The notes under the pieces were generated by a model. It was not told the origin of the DNA. It searched no databases and saw only the letters and a list, made by a program, of their open reading frames with translations. A DNA stretch of 41,117 nucleotides, from positions 1-41,117 of the forward strand of contig QBMN01000014.1 in the NCBI GenBank assembly GCA_003241845.1, given 5' to 3'. Positions 1,932 to 31,108 of the stretch are shown here, piece after piece (the first letter of the stretch is position 1; each line of letters begins with the position of its first letter). The translations under genes were made by a program, and so were the position numbers. The DNA comes from Shackletoniella antarctica (GTDB taxonomy: Bacteria > Cyanobacteriota > Cyanobacteriia > Phormidesmidales > Phormidesmidaceae).

Positions 1932-2390
1932 TCACTGACCCCGGTTCAGCTGCATCATCTGCCAGGTAATCAACGTGCCCACCGGGCTCCAAAGCAGGTA
2001 GGGCAGCAGCAAGAAAAATGCGGCCATGGCTACCTGGGCCACTGGCCAGGCGAACAGCAGCCCAAACACAAACCCCGCCGCCCCGATCGCCATGCCCACG
2101 CGCAAGCTCTGCAATTTGCACATCACCGGGGTGTAGCTCATAATCAGCAGCTCTAGCAAGACATACCCCGCCATGAACCACCAGCTCTGGGTTTGGCTCC
2201 AAACGATGTAGGCTGACCAGCCGCCGCAGATAAATACCACCGTCCACACAACCGGAATGGCAAACTCGAAAGTGAGCCAGTCGGGGCGACGCTGCCGCTT
2301 AAACCACTTAATGTCGCGGGAGCTGAGCAGGCTGGAGGCAGACGCGATCGCTACCCCCACTACCGCAATTACCAACCAGGCTGGAAACAT
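1932..2390 (-). CDS. TspO/MBR family-like integral membrane protein
   Basis: The 152-residue product is almost entirely hydrophobic with about five membrane-spanning segments, the size and topology of TspO/MBR (tryptophan-rich sensory protein, translocator) proteins. After the first helix it has the family-like stretch RRPDWLTFEFAIPVVWTVVF, matching the usual 'KP.w.P....WT.LY' loop-helix. Tryptophans are abundant. TspO proteins bind tetrapyrroles and act in stress signalling in cyanobacteria. A GAGG ribosome site lies six bases before the ATG. The gene stands alone. The canonical 'KPxWxPP' is degenerate, so it could be a divergent TspO-like branch. Confidence 0.7.
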   Translation of the reverse strand: MFPAWLVIAVVGVAIASASSLLSSRDIKWFKRQRRPDWLTFEFAIPVVWTVVFICGGWSAYIVWSQTQSWWFMAGYVLLELLIMSYTPVMCKLQSLRVGMAIGAAGFVFGLLFAWPVAQVAMAAFFLLLPYLLWSPVGTLITWQMMQLNRGQ

Positions 2391-2514
2391 TGTTTACCTC
2401 GCAGAGCCTGATTAAACTAAACCAGACCAGGGCCGCCGCGACATCTTACCCATGACACAACTTAAAGAACTGGTGGACTGGAGATGACAGCCTGCCATGA
2501 GCTTTGAAGTAGTT

Positions 2515-2745
2515 TCATGCAGATAGGGGAGCGGTCATACACCGACGCTCGCGATCGGCAGCATAGGCGATGCAGGCTTTTAGATCTTCTCGCGTCAGGT
2601 CGGGAAAGTCGTCGAGAATTTCGGCTTCGGTCATCTCGGAAGCTAGATACTCAAGCACTTCGTAGACGGTGATGCGTAAGCCGCGTACGCAAGGTTTGCC
2701 GCTGCGCTTATTGGGTTCAATTGTGATGTAGTTTCGGTAGTCCAT
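2515..2745 (-). CDS. DUF433 domain protein (antitoxin-like)
   Basis: The 76-residue protein begins YITIEPNKRSGKPCVRGLRI and continues with TVYEVLEYLASEMTEAEIL, the hallmark of DUF433, a small helical domain. In many cyanobacteria DUF433 is the antitoxin-like partner of a DUF5615 PIN-like nuclease encoded immediately downstream. Here nothing coding follows between 2514 and the TspO-like gene at 2390, so the gene appears to be an orphan. A good ribosome site (AAAGGAA) precedes the ATG. It shares its strand with the Argonaute gene, which ends 160 bases upstream of its start. Confidence 0.85.
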   Translation of the reverse strand: MDYRNYITIEPNKRSGKPCVRGLRITVYEVLEYLASEMTEAEILDDFPDLTREDLKACIAYAADRERRCMTAPLSA

Positions 2746-2906
2746 AGATTATTCCTTTGGGGTTTGGGCGCGGCGATCGCGCATGGATGGGTGAAGAATT
2801 TATGCGCTTAGGGTAGATTGTTTGGCAAGAAAACTATCAGGGGAGTTGGGTTCCGCTGGCGCTTCACCCAACCTACAATAGCTGGCTAGTAAAATATTCT
2901 ACGCTC

Positions 2907-5099
2907 TTAGACAGCAATCAACTTTTCTCGACCAATATTTTGGAGAATACTTATCTGACCAATGCGCTGAAACTCCTTACTACTTTTGTCAGCTAGATGA
3001 AGTACCCAAGGCAGCCGACATGAGCGAAAACCACTTGCAGGATGTAATTGAGTGAGGTGGTAAGTTTGTAAAGCTAATAATTCAAGAGGAGCATCCCCAT
3101 ACTCATGAACGACCCTTAAAGGTCTTACACTACCAATATTCTTAACAACTGCTTGGCTTGTTACTATGATAAAAGAACGTTCTTTTGGCATGAATACAGT
3201 GCTGCCGACTTGAGCGTCCCGATAGACTTTCCTTCCATCTTGCATGACTTCCTGCCCCATTCTTCCTGCCCCACTTTTGCGTACCCCTACAAGATCTACA
3301 GAGATTTCCTGCTCCTTCAATGCTGTTAACGTTTGGTCAAATTCTCCTGATTGAATCAAGCCATCTCTCATTAACAGTATTCTTTTAGGATAACGGTTGC
3401 AGATATTGTGAAATTTAATAACAAGTTTAGAAACCGTTTGCCAAACTCCTTGTCCAGAAAAGCGCTCTCCTCTCTGGACATCAGGAAGTTCCCAACCTAA
3501 GCTTTGCCCATTAGCTAGCACAGCAAAAGCTGAAGTTCCATAATACAGTTCTCGATTTGTACCAGTATCGAAACCAATAATCAGTTCTGCGGCGTCAGGA
3601 TGATCTATTGGCTCCAGGCGTAAAGGTTGCCAGCCAGCTTTACATAATAAACCCAGAACTACATTTATAGCTTTGCTAGCATCAGCTTTTGGCTGAGGCA
3701 CTATAAATTGAGTGGCAATACCAGCTTTCAACGCTTCCACTCTAATTTGTTGTTTACGCTCGTTAGGTGACCATGGCATAACTACTAGAACAGTTTTTAT
3801 ATTTTCATTTGACCATGTTTGCCAAAACATTTGTCGATCAAGTGCACCTTCAGGCAATTGACTTAGTACTCGATAGGAATCAATGTGTATCTGTGTATCG
3901 CTCTTTTGAGCTACTTCTTTTAGGCATTTTTCAACTTCTGAAGGATATTTAGGCATCTCATTAAAGAGATTAAGACAACCAAAGTTGGTCTCTCCAACTT
4001 TAACACAGCCTTTATAACTAACTTTAGCAGCCTTATCTACCTCCCCCTTCAAGGCAAATAGCTTTGCTGCCGGAAGAATACACCCATTTGCCATTAGTGG
4101 CTTAGGCAAAGAATGAATCTTGTAGATTACCTCTAGAATTTTTTGAGCGGTTTTTTCACATTCTTTCAGTCGAGTATCTAAATTCTTCTTGATATGGCTA
4201 AAAACTTCTTGAATATTCTTCTGCTCTTTTTTCTCGGATTGTTCCGAGATACTTGCCAACATTTCCATCGTCAGGCTAGGTGAAAGCCTTTGAGAAAGAT
4301 GAGTTACCACTTGAGCATTCCATTGATTCGCTCTTTTTACGTAAACAACACGCGAATTCTGTATTTCTTCCTCTGTCGCCCCGGTTTGGCGATGATAACC
4401 CGCTAAAGTCATCCCCAAGCTTTCAATCAAAGATTCATCGGGTGTTTTATCAGAGACTCCTTCATATCGCCAACTAATGTAATTATTGCTCTTATCTTTG
4501 TATGTGTTTCGAACGTAACTGATTGGGATGTCAGGGTATTCATCTTGCCATTTATGAAGATTCCATGGAGTATAAAAGCGATGATGTAAATCTATCTCTA
4601 GATATAGAATGCCTTCAGAATCAATATTGATGTCTATTCTTCTCCCCTTATGCACTTCCCAACCCTTGCCATATTTCTCTTTGCCTGCATCTCCCGTTAC
4701 CCACCAAATCAATCCGCCTTCAGAAGCTCTTTCAATGGCTGTCGAGTTCCACATCCTTAATTGTTTTTCTAGTTTTCTTCTCTCTAAACCTTCTAATCCT
4801 TTAAGCTCTAAAGAGTCGGCACAGTTTAATTTTCTTGTAGAAATAAGTCTCAATTCCCAGTTTTCGCCTTGCAAGCGATCTAAGCTAACAGCCTCTTGAG
4901 TTATAATTTTTGACCCTAATCTGGTCGCAGGGGTTCCAAGTTTATAGCAAATGCTAGAAATTGCTTTTTGTTCGTCGCCTTGATCAGGATTTTCCTTAAA
5001 GCTACAGCTATATTCATAAATTAAAAGCTCAGAATCACTCAATTGTTTCACAAGGAAACGGTTCAACACGACTTCAGTATCTTCAAATTCAAGTTTCAT
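2907..5099 (-). CDS. Long prokaryotic Argonaute with intact DEDD catalytic tetrad
   Basis: The 730-residue protein is a full-length (N-PAZ-MID-PIWI) prokaryotic Argonaute, a guide-directed nuclease that in cyanobacterial and bacterial examples uses short DNA guides to cut DNA. The PIWI tetrad can be placed as D511 (IIGFDTG), E545 (RGERFSG, the glutamate finger), D579 (LLMRDG) and D704 (LHLADK). The 34-residue spacings D-E and E-D equal those known for Thermus Argonaute (478/512/546). The MID 5'-phosphate pocket (about 445-470, NERKQQIRVEALKAGIATQF) lacks the usual tyrosine and has Arg where Lys is common, so guide-end binding may be unusual. It resembles the long-A group containing SeAgo and LrAgo. 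Base composition is visibly A+T-rich against its neighbours and the gene contains no HIP1 octamer, suggesting acquisition by transfer. No cas or nuclease partner gene adjoins it. Confidence 0.92.
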   Translation of the reverse strand: MKLEFEDTEVVLNRFLVKQLSDSELLIYEYSCSFKENPDQGDEQKAISSICYKLGTPATRLGSKIITQEAVSLDRLQGENWELRLISTRKLNCADSLELKGLEGLERRKLEKQLRMWNSTAIERASEGGLIWWVTGDAGKEKYGKGWEVHKGRRIDINIDSEGILYLEIDLHHRFYTPWNLHKWQDEYPDIPISYVRNTYKDKSNNYISWRYEGVSDKTPDESLIESLGMTLAGYHRQTGATEEEIQNSRVVYVKRANQWNAQVVTHLSQRLSPSLTMEMLASISEQSEKKEQKNIQEVFSHIKKNLDTRLKECEKTAQKILEVIYKIHSLPKPLMANGCILPAAKLFALKGEVDKAAKVSYKGCVKVGETNFGCLNLFNEMPKYPSEVEKCLKEVAQKSDTQIHIDSYRVLSQLPEGALDRQMFWQTWSNENIKTVLVVMPWSPNERKQQIRVEALKAGIATQFIVPQPKADASKAINVVLGLLCKAGWQPLRLEPIDHPDAAELIIGFDTGTNRELYYGTSAFAVLANGQSLGWELPDVQRGERFSGQGVWQTVSKLVIKFHNICNRYPKRILLMRDGLIQSGEFDQTLTALKEQEISVDLVGVRKSGAGRMGQEVMQDGRKVYRDAQVGSTVFMPKERSFIIVTSQAVVKNIGSVRPLRVVHEYGDAPLELLALQTYHLTQLHPASGFRSCRLPWVLHLADKSSKEFQRIGQISILQNIGREKLIAV

Positions 5100-5532
5100 G
5101 GAGAATATTAACCTCGCTTACTGGTTTTGAAAGCAGTCTTATGATAAAGATGTGCTTGCTCAATTCAACTATCTTCAAATTCTAATCTGGGAGATTCTTT
5201 GCCACTGATTACAGTCCTTCAAATTATTTTTCTGGTTTAACCCACTCTTCAAGGTCATTTCCACGGTTGACGGGGAGCTTTTGTACCACTATTGTCTTAC
5301 ATTAAGCCGTTCAGCAGGACGGTGGCCACGCAGAACTCGAAAATCTTAGCGCTGTCTGAAGGTGTGCTACCACCAACAGACAGCTAACCCCGCAAATCTA
5401 ACACGCAGATTGCGAGGCTAGGCTCATCGTACCCTAGCCCCCCCAGTTTGAACTTCAACTGCGGGTGGCTAGGGTTTTCGCGTTCTGTTTTCTTCCCATC
5501 ACCAAAGGAAACAGAACCCATGTTTGAATATC
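5100..5532. other. Gene-poor region upstream of the Argonaute, with decayed coding scraps
   Basis: There is no intact gene in these 430 bases. The first 200 are A+T-rich like the Argonaute gene. On the minus strand a short open frame (5224-5304) ends KLPVNRGNDLEEWVKPEK-stop, which reads like a genuine protein C-terminus. The 13-mer TATCTTCAAATTC of the Argonaute start region (5078-5090) recurs exactly at 5170-5182, where the minus frame reads LEFEDS-stop against LEFEDT at the Argonaute N-terminus. From 5330 the composition returns to the G+C-rich norm. An inverted repeat (GTTCTGTTT, 5482-5490, with AAACAGAAC near 5515) lies just before 5520. Confidence 0.4.
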
Positions 5533-5691
5533 TCAAACCGACCCCATCTCCATGCCGCCCGCCAGCGACATCCCCGGCACAACCTCCCCACCAGGCACCA
5601 TCTGGATGGCGATTCCGGTACGGATCGCTTCGCGAATCGCCACCAAAACCGTGCTGATTGAGTAAAGCACCCTGCCCGCCCCCGGCAGCAT
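5533..5691 (-). pseudogene. Unidentified 52-codon frame, probable C-terminal gene remnant
   Basis: The minus strand reads from an ATG at 5691 through a well-formed protein-like stretch (STVLVAIREAIRTGIAIQMV, then PGGEVVPGMSL) to a TGA at 5533. The residue pattern, a regular amphipathic helix followed by a Pro-Gly-Gly turn, looks like real coding sequence. I cannot name the family. It lies head-to-head against the ABC-transporter remnant beginning at about 5718, so both are probably debris of larger genes joined by deletion. It could alternatively be a short intact gene. Confidence 0.35.
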
Positions 5692-5717
5692 CACCCCTTG
5701 TCGTCGGAGGCTGCGAT

Positions 5718-5942
5718 GTGGGCCTGCTCAAGGATGTGGTGGTGACGGCCTTTTTGCCGATGCTGGGCAATACGCTGATTTTGATCGGCATGGTGGTGCC
5801 GATGCTGTGGCTGCCTTTGAAACTTACCCTGCTGGCGTTGGCCACGATTTCTCTGTTTTCGCTGACTACGCTGCGCCGCCGCCGTATTAAAAAGGTGTCG
5901 CGCCAGCAGGAGGGGGCGATCGCCGCCGCCACCGCCGACCGA
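5718..5942 (+). pseudogene. Fragment of ABC exporter permease/ATPase (membrane domain only)
   Basis: The plus frame reads VGLLKDVVVTAFLPMLGN, two hydrophobic segments, then TTLRRRRIKKVSRQQEGAIA. This matches the middle of the transmembrane domain of type I ABC exporters (MsbA/HlyB-like), where 'LL.D.....LL...L.L.GM' is followed by 'SR..R..EG.....A.E'. Both the start and the whole nucleotide-binding domain (Walker A, signature, Walker B) are missing. Only about 75 codons survive before the frame runs into the convergent end of mutL. It is clearly not functional. Confidence 0.65.
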
Positions 5943-6008
5943 CTGGTCTGCGTCGATGACGTTTGCGGCAGCGCTGATTCAGAGGCTTTAGTGGGTCATG
6001 CTCTGCTG

Positions 6009-7754
6009 CTACTCAATGCCGTGGCTTTTGCCCACCACCCAGCTGCGGCGAAAGAAGCGAGCCAGGCTGGTTTCGCTTAGCGTTAGACAGATCGGTCTGC
6101 CGTGGGGGCAGGTGCGGGGGTTGCGGGTCTGCTGCCAGTCGTCGAGCAGGGTTTGCAGAGTGGCGAGGTCTAGGGGGGTGCCGTTGCGAATGGCGGTGCG
6201 GCAGGCGATCGCCACCTGGGCCGTATCCAGGTTGCCGCCCAGGCTGAGTTCGAGCAGGGCATCGGGCAGGTCGGGGCGATCGCACAACGGCTCCGGCGCG
6301 GCGCGAATTGCCCAGCGATTTGGCCCAAACTCTTCGGTCGCTAAGCCCAGCCGTTGCAGTTGCTCAAGCTGCTTGCCGGTCAGCCCTTCTAGCACGACGG
6401 GAGTGGGTAAGGGCACCAGCCGCCACTGGGCTTGCAGCCGCTCGTAGAGCACCCGCTCGTGGGCGATGTGCTGCTCAATCAGGCACAGGCCATCGGGCTG
6501 CTCGGCCAAAATGTAGCGGTGGTGAATTTGGGCGATCGCCCTTAACCTACCCACCCGTTCCCGATAGGGCAGCTGATCTGACAGATCGGCAGTGCCGTAG
6601 GCCCCGCTCGGTTCTGCCGTCTGGAGCAGTTGGGTGACGCGCTGCTGCTGGCTGGCTTCGGGCCGGGCGGCGGCATGCTGCCCTAGCAGCGTCTCAATGT
6701 GGCTCTGGCAGAGCGCCGTCCACTGGTCGAGCTGATGCAGGTACAGGGTGCTTTTGTCGGGGCGGCGGTTCCAGTCAATGGCGCTGGGGGCGACGGTCAA
6801 CTGCACAAACGCTAGGGGGTAGCGGTGTCGGGGCAGGGTATAGCGAAAGGCATTGATAATGCTTTGCTCTAGCTCAGGCACCGTCACCAGCCGGCCGTTT
6901 ACCGCTACTTTTACCCAGTCGGGCCGGGGGCGGTGGCAGCGATCGGGCAGGCCAATTAGGCCGTAGATGCTGGCCTGTAGAGAATCCTGTAGAGAATTAT
7001 CGCTACCCTCAGCCCAGGGAGCGGTTTGCCAACCTTCGTGCAAATCGCTGTCGTTGACGGCCCGCACCAGCTGGGTCACTAGCCCTCGGGCGGTGGGGCT
7101 AGGGGTGAGGGTCAGCCAGGGGCGATCGCCCACCTGCACCACCCAGGTCACCGTGGGATGGGCCAGAGCGCAGTGGTAAATCACCCGCTGCACCTGGCGC
7201 AGCTGCCGGGGCAGCGTCGGCAGTCGCTCCCGGCGAGCGGGCCAGTCTTTAAACAGATCGGTAACTGTCACCACGGTGCCCTGGCCCAGGGCCGCCGGGG
7301 TGGTCTCTAGGGCCTCGCCGGTCGCCGAGTAGGTGACGCGCCAGCCCGACTCGGCACCGGGGGGGCGGCTGCAAATCTCTAGCTGGGCCACCTGGGCCAG
7401 GCTGTGCAGCGCCTCGCCGCGAAAGCCCAGGCTGGCGACCCGCCACAGGTCAGCCTGGGTGCGAATTTTGCTGGTGCTGTGGGGAACCGCAGCCTGAAGC
7501 AGGTTATCTAGCGCCATCGCCGTGCCGTTGTCGGCCACCTGCACCCGTCCCTGGTCGGGCCAGAGAGCCAGGGTAATGTGGGTCGCCTGGGCATCGAGGG
7601 CGTTCTCAATCAGCTCGCGCACCGCCGCCGCCAGCGAGTCAATCACCTCTCCGGCGGCAATGCTGTAAATCACGTCGCCGGGCAGCGATTGAATGCGGCT
7701 AGAAACAGAATTAGAAACGCTGTCGACGGTGATGGGGCAAAGCTCCAGGGGCAA
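6009..7754 (-). CDS. mutL: DNA mismatch repair protein MutL
   Basis: MutL couples MutS mismatch recognition to strand incision. The 581-residue product has the GHKL ATPase motifs in order: IAAGEVI and RELIENALDA (Glu and Asn of motif I), VADNGTAM (motif II), STSKI and SLGFRGEAL (motif III). The C-terminal domain has EQHIAHERVLYE in place of the endonuclease signature DQHA(x2)E(x4)E, with ACRTAIRNG and CPHGRP also present, so it is the nicking type of MutL in slightly altered form. The only possible start upstream of the conserved N-terminus is TTG at 7754, which directly follows an in-frame TAG. No mutS is nearby; the gene stands alone. Confidence 0.95.
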   Translation of the reverse strand: MPLELCPITVDSVSNSVSSRIQSLPGDVIYSIAAGEVIDSLAAAVRELIENALDAQATHITLALWPDQGRVQVADNGTAMALDNLLQAAVPHSTSKIRTQADLWRVASLGFRGEALHSLAQVAQLEICSRPPGAESGWRVTYSATGEALETTPAALGQGTVVTVTDLFKDWPARRERLPTLPRQLRQVQRVIYHCALAHPTVTWVVQVGDRPWLTLTPSPTARGLVTQLVRAVNDSDLHEGWQTAPWAEGSDNSLQDSLQASIYGLIGLPDRCHRPRPDWVKVAVNGRLVTVPELEQSIINAFRYTLPRHRYPLAFVQLTVAPSAIDWNRRPDKSTLYLHQLDQWTALCQSHIETLLGQHAAARPEASQQQRVTQLLQTAEPSGAYGTADLSDQLPYRERVGRLRAIAQIHHRYILAEQPDGLCLIEQHIAHERVLYERLQAQWRLVPLPTPVVLEGLTGKQLEQLQRLGLATEEFGPNRWAIRAAPEPLCDRPDLPDALLELSLGGNLDTAQVAIACRTAIRNGTPLDLATLQTLLDDWQQTRNPRTCPHGRPICLTLSETSLARFFRRSWVVGKSHGIE

Positions 7755-28758: not shown

Positions 28759-30062
28759 ATGGCATCGATGCATCGCCCGGTCTGAACCCTTGATTTAGAT
28801 GATGTTTACCAATATCTCGACAGCGACCCCCAAGGGTTAACCGAGCTGGAAGCCCAGCGGCGGCTAGAGCGCTACGGCCCCAATGAACTGCCTGAACCCG
28901 CCCACCGACCGCTGTGGCTGCGCTTTACCGACCAGCTCACTCACTTTATGGCGCTGCTGCTGTGGGTGGCGGGCATTTTGGCTTTTGTCTCCCAAACCCC
29001 AGCCCTGGGCTGGGCGATCTGGGCGGTGATTTGGATTAACGCCGTGTTTAGCTTCTCCCAGGAGTTTAGGGCCGAGCAGGCGCTGGCGGCATTAAAGAAC
29101 GTGCTGCCGGCCCAGGTGCGCGTGTTTCGCCAGGGTAAGCTGGTGCAAATTCCAGCCCGAGATTTGGTGCGGGGGGATGTGATGCAGCTAGAGGATGGCG
29201 ATCGCATCTCCGCCGATGCCCGCTTGGTCAGTGAAGACCTGCAACAGCGCTACTCGCGCCAGCGGGAAATACCCTTTGACTCGCGGCGGCGGATGATGAC
29301 CGTGGTGCTCGATTGGCAAGCTGATCTCTGGCCCGACACCTTTCCCCAGGCTACCCAGGTGGCCTTTACTAAGGGCGCGCCCCTAGAGGTGGTGCGCCAC
29401 TGCCAGAGCATTTTACGCAACGGCACCGCAGGCAAACTGGGCCATGACGACTGGGAACAGGTGGTGGCGGCCAACGACAGCTTTGCCCGCCAGGGGTTTC
29501 GGGTACTGGGGCTGGCGGCCCGCCCCGGTGGAGACGAGCTGCGGGATATGAAAGCTCAGGATTTGGAGCAGGGGCTAACCTTCGTGGGTCTGGTGGCACT
29601 GGGCGGGCATTCGCGTCACCATGGTGACCAGCGACTACGGGCTGACCGCCGAGGCGATCGCTCAGCAGATCGGCCTCTTAGACGACAGCCATCCCAGCCA
29701 CGAGCCAGTGCGGGTGATTACCGGTGAAACCCTAGGCCACCTCTCCGACGCTCAGCTCCAGCAGATGGTGAAGTACCGCTCGCGGCTGGTATTTGCCCGC
29801 ATGTCGCCCGAGCACAAACTGCGGCTGGTGGAAGCCTACAAGGCCACCGGGGCGGTGGTGGTGGTGACCGGCGACGGCGTCAACGATGCCCCGGCCCTGC
29901 GATCGGCCCACATTGGCATTGCCATGGGCCTCAACGGCACCAACGTGGCCCGCGAGGCCGCCGACATTGTGCTCACCGACGACAACTTCGCCACCATCAT
30001 CAGCGCTATTGAAGAAGGTCGCACCATTTATCAAAATATTCGCAAGTTCATCACCTACATCC
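28759..30062 (+). pseudogene. Cation-transporting P-type ATPase, multiply disrupted
   Basis: The N-terminus (DSDPQGLTELEAQRRLERYG, PLWLRFTDQLTHFMALLLWV) and ion-pump parts (EDGDRISADARLV; VVVTGDGVNDAPALRSAHIG; VLTDDNFATIISAIEEGRTI) are recognisable. A TGA at 28783 replaces the expected tryptophan codon. The stretch with the TGES loop and the phosphorylated DKTGT is deleted after DARLV, and a deletion with frameshift follows VGLVALG at about 29605. The 3' part, including the C-terminal membrane helices, is cut off at 30062 by transposon sequence. It cannot make a working pump; it resembles an E1-E2 Ca/cation ATPase. Confidence 0.88.
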
Positions 30063-30177
30063 CAGCAATTATAAATTCGAGAATAGTTAGGATGTATTAC
30101 CCGTGGTTGCTGGTGTCGACTCGTCGAGCATGAAGTCAATCAGATGTTGCCAGGAGTCAAAGAGCAGGTACTTGGTT
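30063..30177 (-). mobile_element. Right-end fragment of an ISNCY-like element (minus orientation)
   Basis: The minus strand reads TKYLLFDSWQHLIDFMLD and on to a TAA at 30087-30089, a transposase-like C-terminus. The left edge, CAGCAATTATAAATTC (30063), matches the end CAGCAATTGTAAATTC that begins the plus-oriented copy at 30178, as expected for the terminal inverted repeat of an element lying in reverse. Two partial copies of the same or related element are thus placed back to back, the first one interrupting the ATPase gene. Confidence 0.55.
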
Positions 30178-30800
30178 CAGCAATTGTAAATTCAGAATTT
30201 GACAGTTTTCCAGCCCCACCGCGAGGATAGAACAACCGGATGGAGGCGATGCCATGGAAGAGCAACGGCTGAGTTTTGCGCTCATGCTGAGCTACCTGAA
30301 TCGAGTGCTGGAGGGGGTTGAGGATCCCCGTCAGCCGAGTAATGCTCGACGCTATCACCTCTGGGATCTGGTGTTGGGGGCCTTTTCGGTGTTTTACCTG
30401 CAATGCCCGTCCTTTTTGGAGCATCAGCGGCAGATGCAGAGCCGCCACGGGCACAACAATGCCCAACGGTTGTTCGGCGTGATGACGATACCGACGCCGA
30501 ATCAGATTAAGAACGTGGTGGATGGGGTGAGTGCCGCGCTGTTGTTTCCAGTCTTTCGCTGGGTCTGCCAAGCCCTATCGGCGCAGGGATTTCTAAAGGC
30601 GTACGAGGTGCTGGGTGGGCAGATCTTGGTGGGGCTCGATGGCACGGAATACTTTTCTTCAGCCTCGATTCACTGCGCTCAATGTTCCCACCGCACCCAC
30701 AAGAGCGGCGACGTCAGCTATCACCACGATGTGATTTTGCCCGTCATCGTCGCGCCAGGGCAGGAGCAGGTGATTTCCCTGATGCCCGAGTTCATTCGCC
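30178..30800 (+). mobile_element. ISNCY-like transposase, N-terminal fragment
   Basis: Beginning at the end sequence CAGCAATTGTAAATTCAG, this copy encodes from 30254 MEEQRLSFALMLSYLNRVLE, FSVFYLQCPSFLEHQRQMQS, LFGVMTIPTPNQIKNVVD and VGLDGTEYFSSASIHCAQC. The LDGTEYFSS block probably holds the first catalytic aspartate. The homology stops after VISLMPEF (about 30797), roughly half a normal transposase. It was cut off by ISAs1-like DNA. Confidence 0.75.
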
Positions 30801-30801
30801 C

Positions 30802-31108
30802 GGCCATAGCGCAGGGTAATCGCATCTAAATTGGCTAATTGCGATACAGACAAATTGCACACTTTCTGACAGGAGCGCAGATTCACTGGTTTTAGGCGAT
30901 GATTATGACTGGTCTCATGCCGAGACTGATTCCTGGGCCATTTAAAAGGCCATTAATGAAGCGTAGAACACTGTTTTTCTCGACACTCTGTGAGTTTAAG
31001 ACTGATTTTCTCTAAATTTGAGCATTTTCGACCTCTCGTTTCATATGCATTTGACTGTGTCTGCTAGCGTTTATACGAAATAAGATGCGATTACCCTGGG
31101 CCATAGCG
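30802..31108. mobile_element. 287-bp non-autonomous element (MITE) with 10-bp target duplication
   Basis: The element runs 30812-31098. Its ends are CAGGGTAATCGCATCTAAAT at the left and, inverted, CAGGGTAATCGCATCTTATT at the right. It is flanked by the perfect direct repeat GGCCATAGCG (30802-30811 and 31099-31108). No coding sequence lies inside. The same terminal sequence ends the neighbouring ISAs1-like fragment at 31438-31457, so it was probably moved in trans by that family's transposase. Joining the flanks restores an ISAs1-like reading (AIERYGRA) on the minus strand. Confidence 0.85.

Follow-up and report, generated by a model that had tools for sequence, protein, structure and literature searches.

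The window considered here is the whole 41,117-nucleotide stretch of Shackletoniella antarctica that was analysed (contig QBMN01000014.1, positions 1 to 41,117), and the element in question is a gene for a long prokaryotic Argonaute (pAgo), ago, which lies within a small cassette between the genes for MutL and TspO. The gene and its parts are placed as follows.

2907 to 5099, reverse strand: long prokaryotic Argonaute gene (ago), 730 residues, an uninterrupted open reading frame (ORF) matching TtAgo and the PADLOC pAgo model
4278 to 4553, reverse strand: PAZ domain, residues 183-274 (Pfam PAZ_3, 7.1e-26)
3567 to 3569, reverse strand: codon of catalytic D511, equivalent to TtAgo D478; D in 29 of 29 aligned proteins
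3465 to 3467, reverse strand: codon of catalytic E545, equivalent to TtAgo E512; E in 29 of 29 aligned proteins
3363 to 3365, reverse strand: codon of catalytic D579, equivalent to TtAgo D546; D in 28 of 29, G in one
2988 to 2990, reverse strand: codon of catalytic D704, equivalent to TtAgo D660; D in 26 of 29, H in two, a gap in one

When the ago protein is compared with solved structures by phmmer, the Argonaute of Thermus (TtAgo) is the top match (E 6.1e-62) and covers residues 7-728 of the 730; CpAgo, 6qzk and KmAgo align along the PIWI part alone, and the match to 1yvu is weak. The PADLOC pAgo model scores 5.9e-288. The TtAgo alignment spans the N, PAZ, MID and PIWI regions over their whole length and the DEDX tetrad is present, so that an earlier note on this DNA, which had predicted a full-length catalytic Argonaute with all four PIWI residues in place, is borne out, D511, E545, D579 and D704 falling on the TtAgo tetrad in the alignment. 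In the MID region, K449, R453, Q464 and K487 share columns with TtAgo R418, K422, Q433 and K457, with K and R swapped at the first two; by the numbering and role that we assume for them, these TtAgo residues form the pocket for the guide 5'-phosphate. A close ago is found in three of the 26 genomes of the genus, namely the window genome, G011 (92%; the named strain Leptolyngbya sp. FACHB-60) and G025 (91%; Tildeniella torsiva UHER 1998/13D, titled a metagenome-assembled genome), and a fourth congener holds only a distant match to part of the PIWI region (28%). Across the three pairwise comparisons within the genus, nonsynonymous divergence (dN) is 0.024-0.043 against a synonymous divergence (dS) of 0.30-0.46, and the resulting dN/dS of 0.08-0.10, being near 0.1, indicates a protein maintained by purifying selection. 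The window gene is thus complete, and the Argonaute it encodes, which is related to a known defence protein of cyanobacteria, is probably able to cut DNA.

Around ago, comparison with the sister loci and with other genomes of the genus separates a cassette from its host flanks.

1932 to 2390, reverse strand: TspO gene, host flank (Pfam TspO_MBR, 2.5e-23)
2507 to 2518, reverse strand: start of a DUF5615 gene, cut off after the codons for MKLL, as seen in alignments; whole in Tildeniella at L003:8872-9204
2515 to 2745, reverse strand: DUF433 gene, downstream cassette edge, 161 bp downstream of ago (Pfam DUF433, 1.7e-24)
5291 to 5447, no strand assigned: upstream region of the small gene below, sharing exact oligomers with the ago-free loci L073, L067/L096 and L132
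5448 to 5657, forward strand: truncated copy of a dispersed small gene ("MFEYLEP"), upstream cassette edge, lacking about 160 bp relative to FACHB-60 and Tildeniella
5666 to 6008, forward strand: high-GC stretch (GC 0.618) outside the cassette, an ABC-transporter membrane-like fragment (weak Pfam ABC_membrane, E 0.018, below cut-off)
6009 to 7754, reverse strand: MutL gene, host flank (Pfam; matches in 26 of 26 congeners)

The sister loci share sequence with the window from ago to approximately 5665, and none clearly past about 5750. On the other side, the TspO loci of the window genome and seven other genomes align from about window position 2466, and those of G011 and G024 from about 2505, which sets the lower edge near 2506, just inside the start of DUF5615; limits of about 2506 to 5665 thereby replace the interval 2781-5915 drawn in the earlier note. 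The DUF5615 gene is whole in Tildeniella (110 residues, Pfam 4.1e-34) and has an early in-frame stop in FACHB-60. We take the DUF433 gene to be antitoxin-like and DUF433/DUF5615 to be a toxin-antitoxin pair. Both sister ago genes are flanked by HEAT-repeat and SpoIID-like genes, and that of the window by MutL and TspO. (The labels HEAT, SpoIID-like, GST-like, Hsp20, ccmK-like, NYN, Cmr2-like, recO, leuB and ilvC were assigned by eye, with no profile, as were the transposase-like ORF of G001, the integrase-like ORFs of G013 and the DUF5615-like ORF of L139.) The MutL/TspO junction was seen in no other genome checked: a different gene follows MutL in all three congeners opened, and in G023 a single contig of 5.46 Mb carries MutL at 1.26 Mb and TspO at 5.37 Mb. 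The window cassette looks like the content of a slot that has moved to this junction. Signs of a transposon or integrative element were looked for and not found: no integrase or transposase was recognised among ORFs of at least 60 residues between TspO and MutL (some of them profile-scanned), and no long exact repeat pair lies at the cassette edges within 2200-6200.

The slot itself is best seen in the sister genomes, where the HEAT/SpoIID-like interval starts with the small gene and, where DUF433 is present, ends with DUF433 or with DUF433/DUF5615. The small gene, which starts with MFEYLEP or similar (e.g., L002:5334-5696 and L101:3642-3923) and has no Pfam or NCBIfam match, is present in 22 of the 26 congeneric genomes, which have as many as 36 matches each; DUF433 matches occur in all 26, with one to 21 in each. 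Fourteen intervals bracketed by the small gene and DUF433 were sampled, inside and outside the HEAT/SpoIID-like locus, and in seven of them a defence protein is strongly matched. Three of the seven hold ago (FACHB-60, Tildeniella and the window); the rest hold a DRT6 reverse transcriptase in G023 (1.4e-142), HEC-01 in G008 (1.7e-200 and 1.6e-65), a CBASS cyclase (9.8e-105) with a 4TM effector (1.4e-89) on contig 278 of the window genome, and a ThsA macro protein on G025 contig 24 (3.9e-36). An eighth, on G003 contig 435, has a weaker match to a TIR ATPase (8.5e-13). As the three ago slots were found by way of ago, the count free of this selection is four strong matches in 11 intervals. In a small control, PADLOC was run on 10 window ORFs: only a GTPase (7.6e-11) fell below 1e-10, and no ORF had a match below 1e-30. 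Weak PADLOC matches accordingly count for little. Between the same HEAT/SpoIID-like flanks lie ago in G011 and G025, DRT6 in G023 and HEC-01 in G008, the window copy being located elsewhere; with different defence genes between the same flanks in related strains, this locus fits the pattern of a defence hotspot. Further pairs of small gene and DUF433 were found, among the matches listed, in G002, G010 (C34), G012 (C13) and G013 (C3). A second, different DUF433/DUF5615 pair (L132:6317-6851) lies about 0.65 kb past the DUF433 gene of the CBASS slot on contig 278. Outside the 14 intervals, the HEAT-side interval of G013 contains a split Cas12k, and no DUF433 was recognised there among ORFs of at least 80 residues and four of the six DUF433 matches listed. 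This Cas12k-like gene lies in two ORFs (L098:5493-7141), is scored nearly equally by the PADLOC Cas12j and Cas12k models and has integrase-like ORFs nearby; it is possibly what remains of a CRISPR-associated transposon.

These observations can be assembled into a model of how the window Argonaute may act, in which we place considerable confidence. It proposes that ago encodes an active, DNA-guided and DNA-cutting long pAgo of the TtAgo and SeAgo kind, which would make plasmid or transforming DNA less persistent and is carried as exchangeable cargo of the slot. In the genus, a slot between the small dispersed gene and the DUF433/DUF5615 pair carries cargo that depends on the strain and often consists of defence genes; in the window genome, the content of such a slot (a piece of the small gene, ago and DUF433) is found at the MutL/TspO junction. 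The Argonaute may load short 5'-phosphorylated pieces released by DNA degradation, the MID and PAZ domains holding them as guide DNA while the PIWI tetrad cuts complementary DNA, such that incoming plasmid or transforming DNA would persist less. The biochemical activity, guide type and target of the window protein are predicted here from those of its relatives, and its most likely role, by analogy with SeAgo of Synechococcus elongatus, is to cut plasmid or transforming DNA under the direction of DNA guides.

In support of that analogy, SeAgo is, like the window protein, full-length, has the same tetrad and is placed nearby in the tree; L014, the homologue that we take to be SeAgo, is 61% identical. 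However, inspection by eye of the 1.5 kb next to L014 showed no toxin-antitoxin gene, and the window gene differs from SeAgo in its host, a member of a presumably filamentous, Leptolyngbya-like genus, and in its place within a slot of varying content. TtAgo aligns over residues 7-728 with all four catalytic residues in common, although it is only about 30% identical and is plasmid-borne in a thermophile. SeAgo is reported to reduce natural transformation and the maintenance of RSF1010, and in a screen of S. elongatus for RSF1010 conjugation or maintenance ago turned up alongside cas4, uvrD, recJcy, rpoD2 and another gene (PMC10653904). The slot resembles the defence hotspots described for E. 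coli and Pseudomonas in its conserved flanks and exchangeable defence cargo; unlike those, it has a dispersed multicopy small gene at one edge and DUF433/DUF5615 at the other, and its bracket recurs at several places in the genome. The earlier note had proposed that the enzyme may act alone, with no cas, helicase or nuclease partner adjoining. No such gene was recognised adjoining the window ago, and a helicase or nuclease partner was set aside as a candidate, the Cas4-like fragment at the homologue L010 being weak (PADLOC 0.0011, NCBIfam 0.004); but the gene does have close neighbours, namely the DUF433 gene and the start of DUF5615 downstream and the truncated small gene upstream. At L010 the fragment (15-847) lies upstream of ago, and a long ORF with no NCBIfam match (3836-5185) lies downstream.

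Recent arrival had been argued in the earlier note from base composition and from the absence of the HIP1 octamer. The gene is indeed A+T-rich, with a GC of 0.399 and a GC at third codon positions (GC3) of 0.315, below the means of 0.606 (standard deviation 0.037) and 0.714 (standard deviation 0.064) for 30 other window ORFs, and HIP1, GCGATCGC, has no copy between those at 2773 and 5916, the largest HIP1-free gap in the window. However, when the 54 HIP1 sites of the 41,117 bp were placed at random in a simulation, the largest gap reached 3,143 bp or more in 58% of placements, and the probability that ago, at 2,193 bp, would contain no HIP1 is 0.05. The gap lies within chance, so the HIP1 argument adds little and was rejected as a sign of foreign DNA, although the gene is truly A+T-rich. 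Low GC is itself weakened as a marker of recent arrival, since the copies of the two sister species, which have diverged from the window copy by a dS of 0.40 and 0.46, have a GC3 of 0.326 and 0.318, and GC3 is 0.20-0.40 in 19 of the 24 homologous coding sequences compared. With sister copies 91-92% identical and equally A+T-rich, composition is no clock.

Horizontal spread, by contrast, stands in the earlier proposal of acquisition, given the scattered hosts and the presence of ago in three of 26 congeners, even as the evidence of recency from composition and HIP1 falls away. The search at the level of the order (63 genomes) yielded no further close ago, and of 388 genomes sampled from the class 58 match ago at E 0.001, roughly half of these only distantly. 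The tree comprises 29 rows, cyanobacterial homologues and two Thermus rows with no long-B row; it unites the three copies of the genus in a single clade (100/100), next to which stands a gene of a different family (97/95). Elsewhere in the tree host genera and families are scattered, one genus needing four changes of which two are forced by well-supported branches, and ago has on this evidence moved among cyanobacteria; six rows of the four-change genus adjoin the same ccmK-like genes, however, and in that genus ago looks vertically kept. One homologous ago lies in two pieces (L024 and a neighbouring match, G121:C1:13646-17076) and is apparently a broken gene. A plasmid, phage or viral carrier was rejected: 46 plasmid records matched ago, all below 60% identity and 33 of them from Thermus, phages gave one weak record, and viral contigs none with a single-protein query, which detects close relatives only.

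For the three pairs within the genus, the dS of ago is 0.40, 0.46 and 0.30, compared with 0.61-1.10, 0.49-0.95 and 0.43-0.57 for six control genes, figures that are simple NG86 estimates for a gene of unusual base composition. Because ago lies below all six controls, the cassette is probably younger than the species splits, though it is not fresh. It would be rather improbable, then, that ago is an old gene inherited vertically in the genus and lost in most of its species. Vertical descent in close relatives, against which the earlier note had set its proposal, finds some agreement in the single clade of the genus copies (100/100) and in the locus shared by two of them, but the window copy is at a different location, only three of 26 genomes hold the gene and its dS is below every control in every pair, but for one control in one pair at fourfold sites.

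That exception is among several findings that weigh against the model of a defence Argonaute in a movable slot: in the pair G000-G025, mazG lies below ago at fourfold sites (0.241 versus 0.267), the picture being otherwise the same. In addition, the NCBIfam argonaute equivalog NF048006 scores 21.4 bits on the ago protein against a cut-off of 700, although this is a curated test and no definition of the Argonaute family. Further, six of the 14 slots lack a clear defence gene (seven if the weaker TIR ATPase match is excluded), these being G004 (ParA-like and HEPN), G001 (a transposase-like ORF and an ATPase), G010 (DUF6559 and a second DUF433/DUF5615 pair), G024 twice and G003 contig 423. Finally, the position of the cassette is taken from one draft assembly of 287 contigs, in which a mis-join at MutL or TspO is possible.

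How the cassette came to its present place may be read from its edges. Over its coding sequence, the window DUF433 gene shares 98.7% of bases (225 of 228) with its counterpart on contig 278 of the window genome, against 92.5% and 91.7% with those next to the sister agos. In the 135 bp upstream of the gene, identity to contig 278 is 88.8% and identity to the sisters only 46-49%. The possibility that ago brought its own DUF433 gene is weakened by these identities and, as the window gene is closest to contig 278, DUF433 dS values offer no independent support. Together with the occurrence of the small-gene upstream region in ago-free loci and the loss of about 160 bp from the small gene, the identities fit recombination in both brackets followed by decay, and we infer that movement took place by recombination in the bracket sequences. 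A broader and more tentative proposal, for which we would claim well under even chances, is that the small gene and DUF433/DUF5615 constitute an exchange frame throughout the genus, whose multicopy recombination arms swap defence modules within and between genomes, and that the window ago is one payload, locked in by the decay of both arms.

An alternate scenario places the main role of ago in chromosome biology, with terminus-derived guides aiding the completion of replication or the separation of chromosomes, as reported for TtAgo and for SeAgo and LrAgo in E. coli. The window Argonaute is related to the TtAgo/SeAgo group. In E. coli cells that express them, SeAgo and LrAgo take up DNA from the terminus as guides and aid division under ciprofloxacin, yet the own host of SeAgo is not protected from ciprofloxacin (PMC10269773). 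With ago present in only three of 26 congeners, it is not needed for replication in the genus, and it is carried in a slot that in other strains holds defence genes; we regard this role as improbable. It could also be proposed that ago cooperates with the toxin-antitoxin genes downstream, so that a second line of defence would arrest the cell once the Argonaute is defeated. Downstream regions of 25 ago loci were opened (L024, L025, L027 and L032 being left out), toxin-antitoxin candidates being profile-scanned, and the flanking ORFs of other loci judged by eye. Six have a toxin-antitoxin gene and 19 have none by eye. All six belong to the seven-member clade of the window gene and have a same-strand gene of such a family within about 450 bp, namely DUF433 (window, L002, L003), HicB-like/HicA with ParD/ParE (L008), PhdYefM/ParE (L009) and an RH3-type ORF, below the Pfam cut-off, followed by a HicB-like gene (L020); outside this clade, none was recognised by eye at 18 loci. 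Cooperation is nevertheless very unlikely, as the families differ among lineages, DUF5615 is cut off after four codons in the window and has an early in-frame stop in FACHB-60, and DUF433 is common (one to 21 matches per genome) and accompanies other slot cargo too.

The preferred model, of a DNA-cutting Argonaute carried as slot cargo, makes the Argonaute itself an ordinary one; what seems less ordinary is the apparently movable slot, with other defence genes in related genomes. A 2023 survey found the PAZ domain and tetrad in 20 of 160 homologues, predicted active long pAgos coming mainly from unicellular cyanobacteria, with only two filamentous hosts, both metagenomic and excluded (PMC10653904). 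Three related long pAgos of the predicted active type are now placed in one Leptolyngbya-like genus, with FACHB-60 a named strain and the Tildeniella genome metagenome-assembled. In the open-access literature, none of the titles listed is on this locus and no paper pairing DUF433 with DUF5615 was found; prokaryotic Argonaute with Leptolyngbya returned a promoter study only, and Nodosilinea with defense and genomic island returned another phylum only. If upheld in a wider survey, the slot would be a place to seek new cyanobacterial defence genes, and removal of ago might ease the transformation of FACHB-60-like strains, as in S. elongatus. Elsewhere in the window, at 28948-30829, a P-type cation ATPase is split between two ORFs that overlap, and the ORF after them is transposase-associated by a Pfam match below its cut-off.

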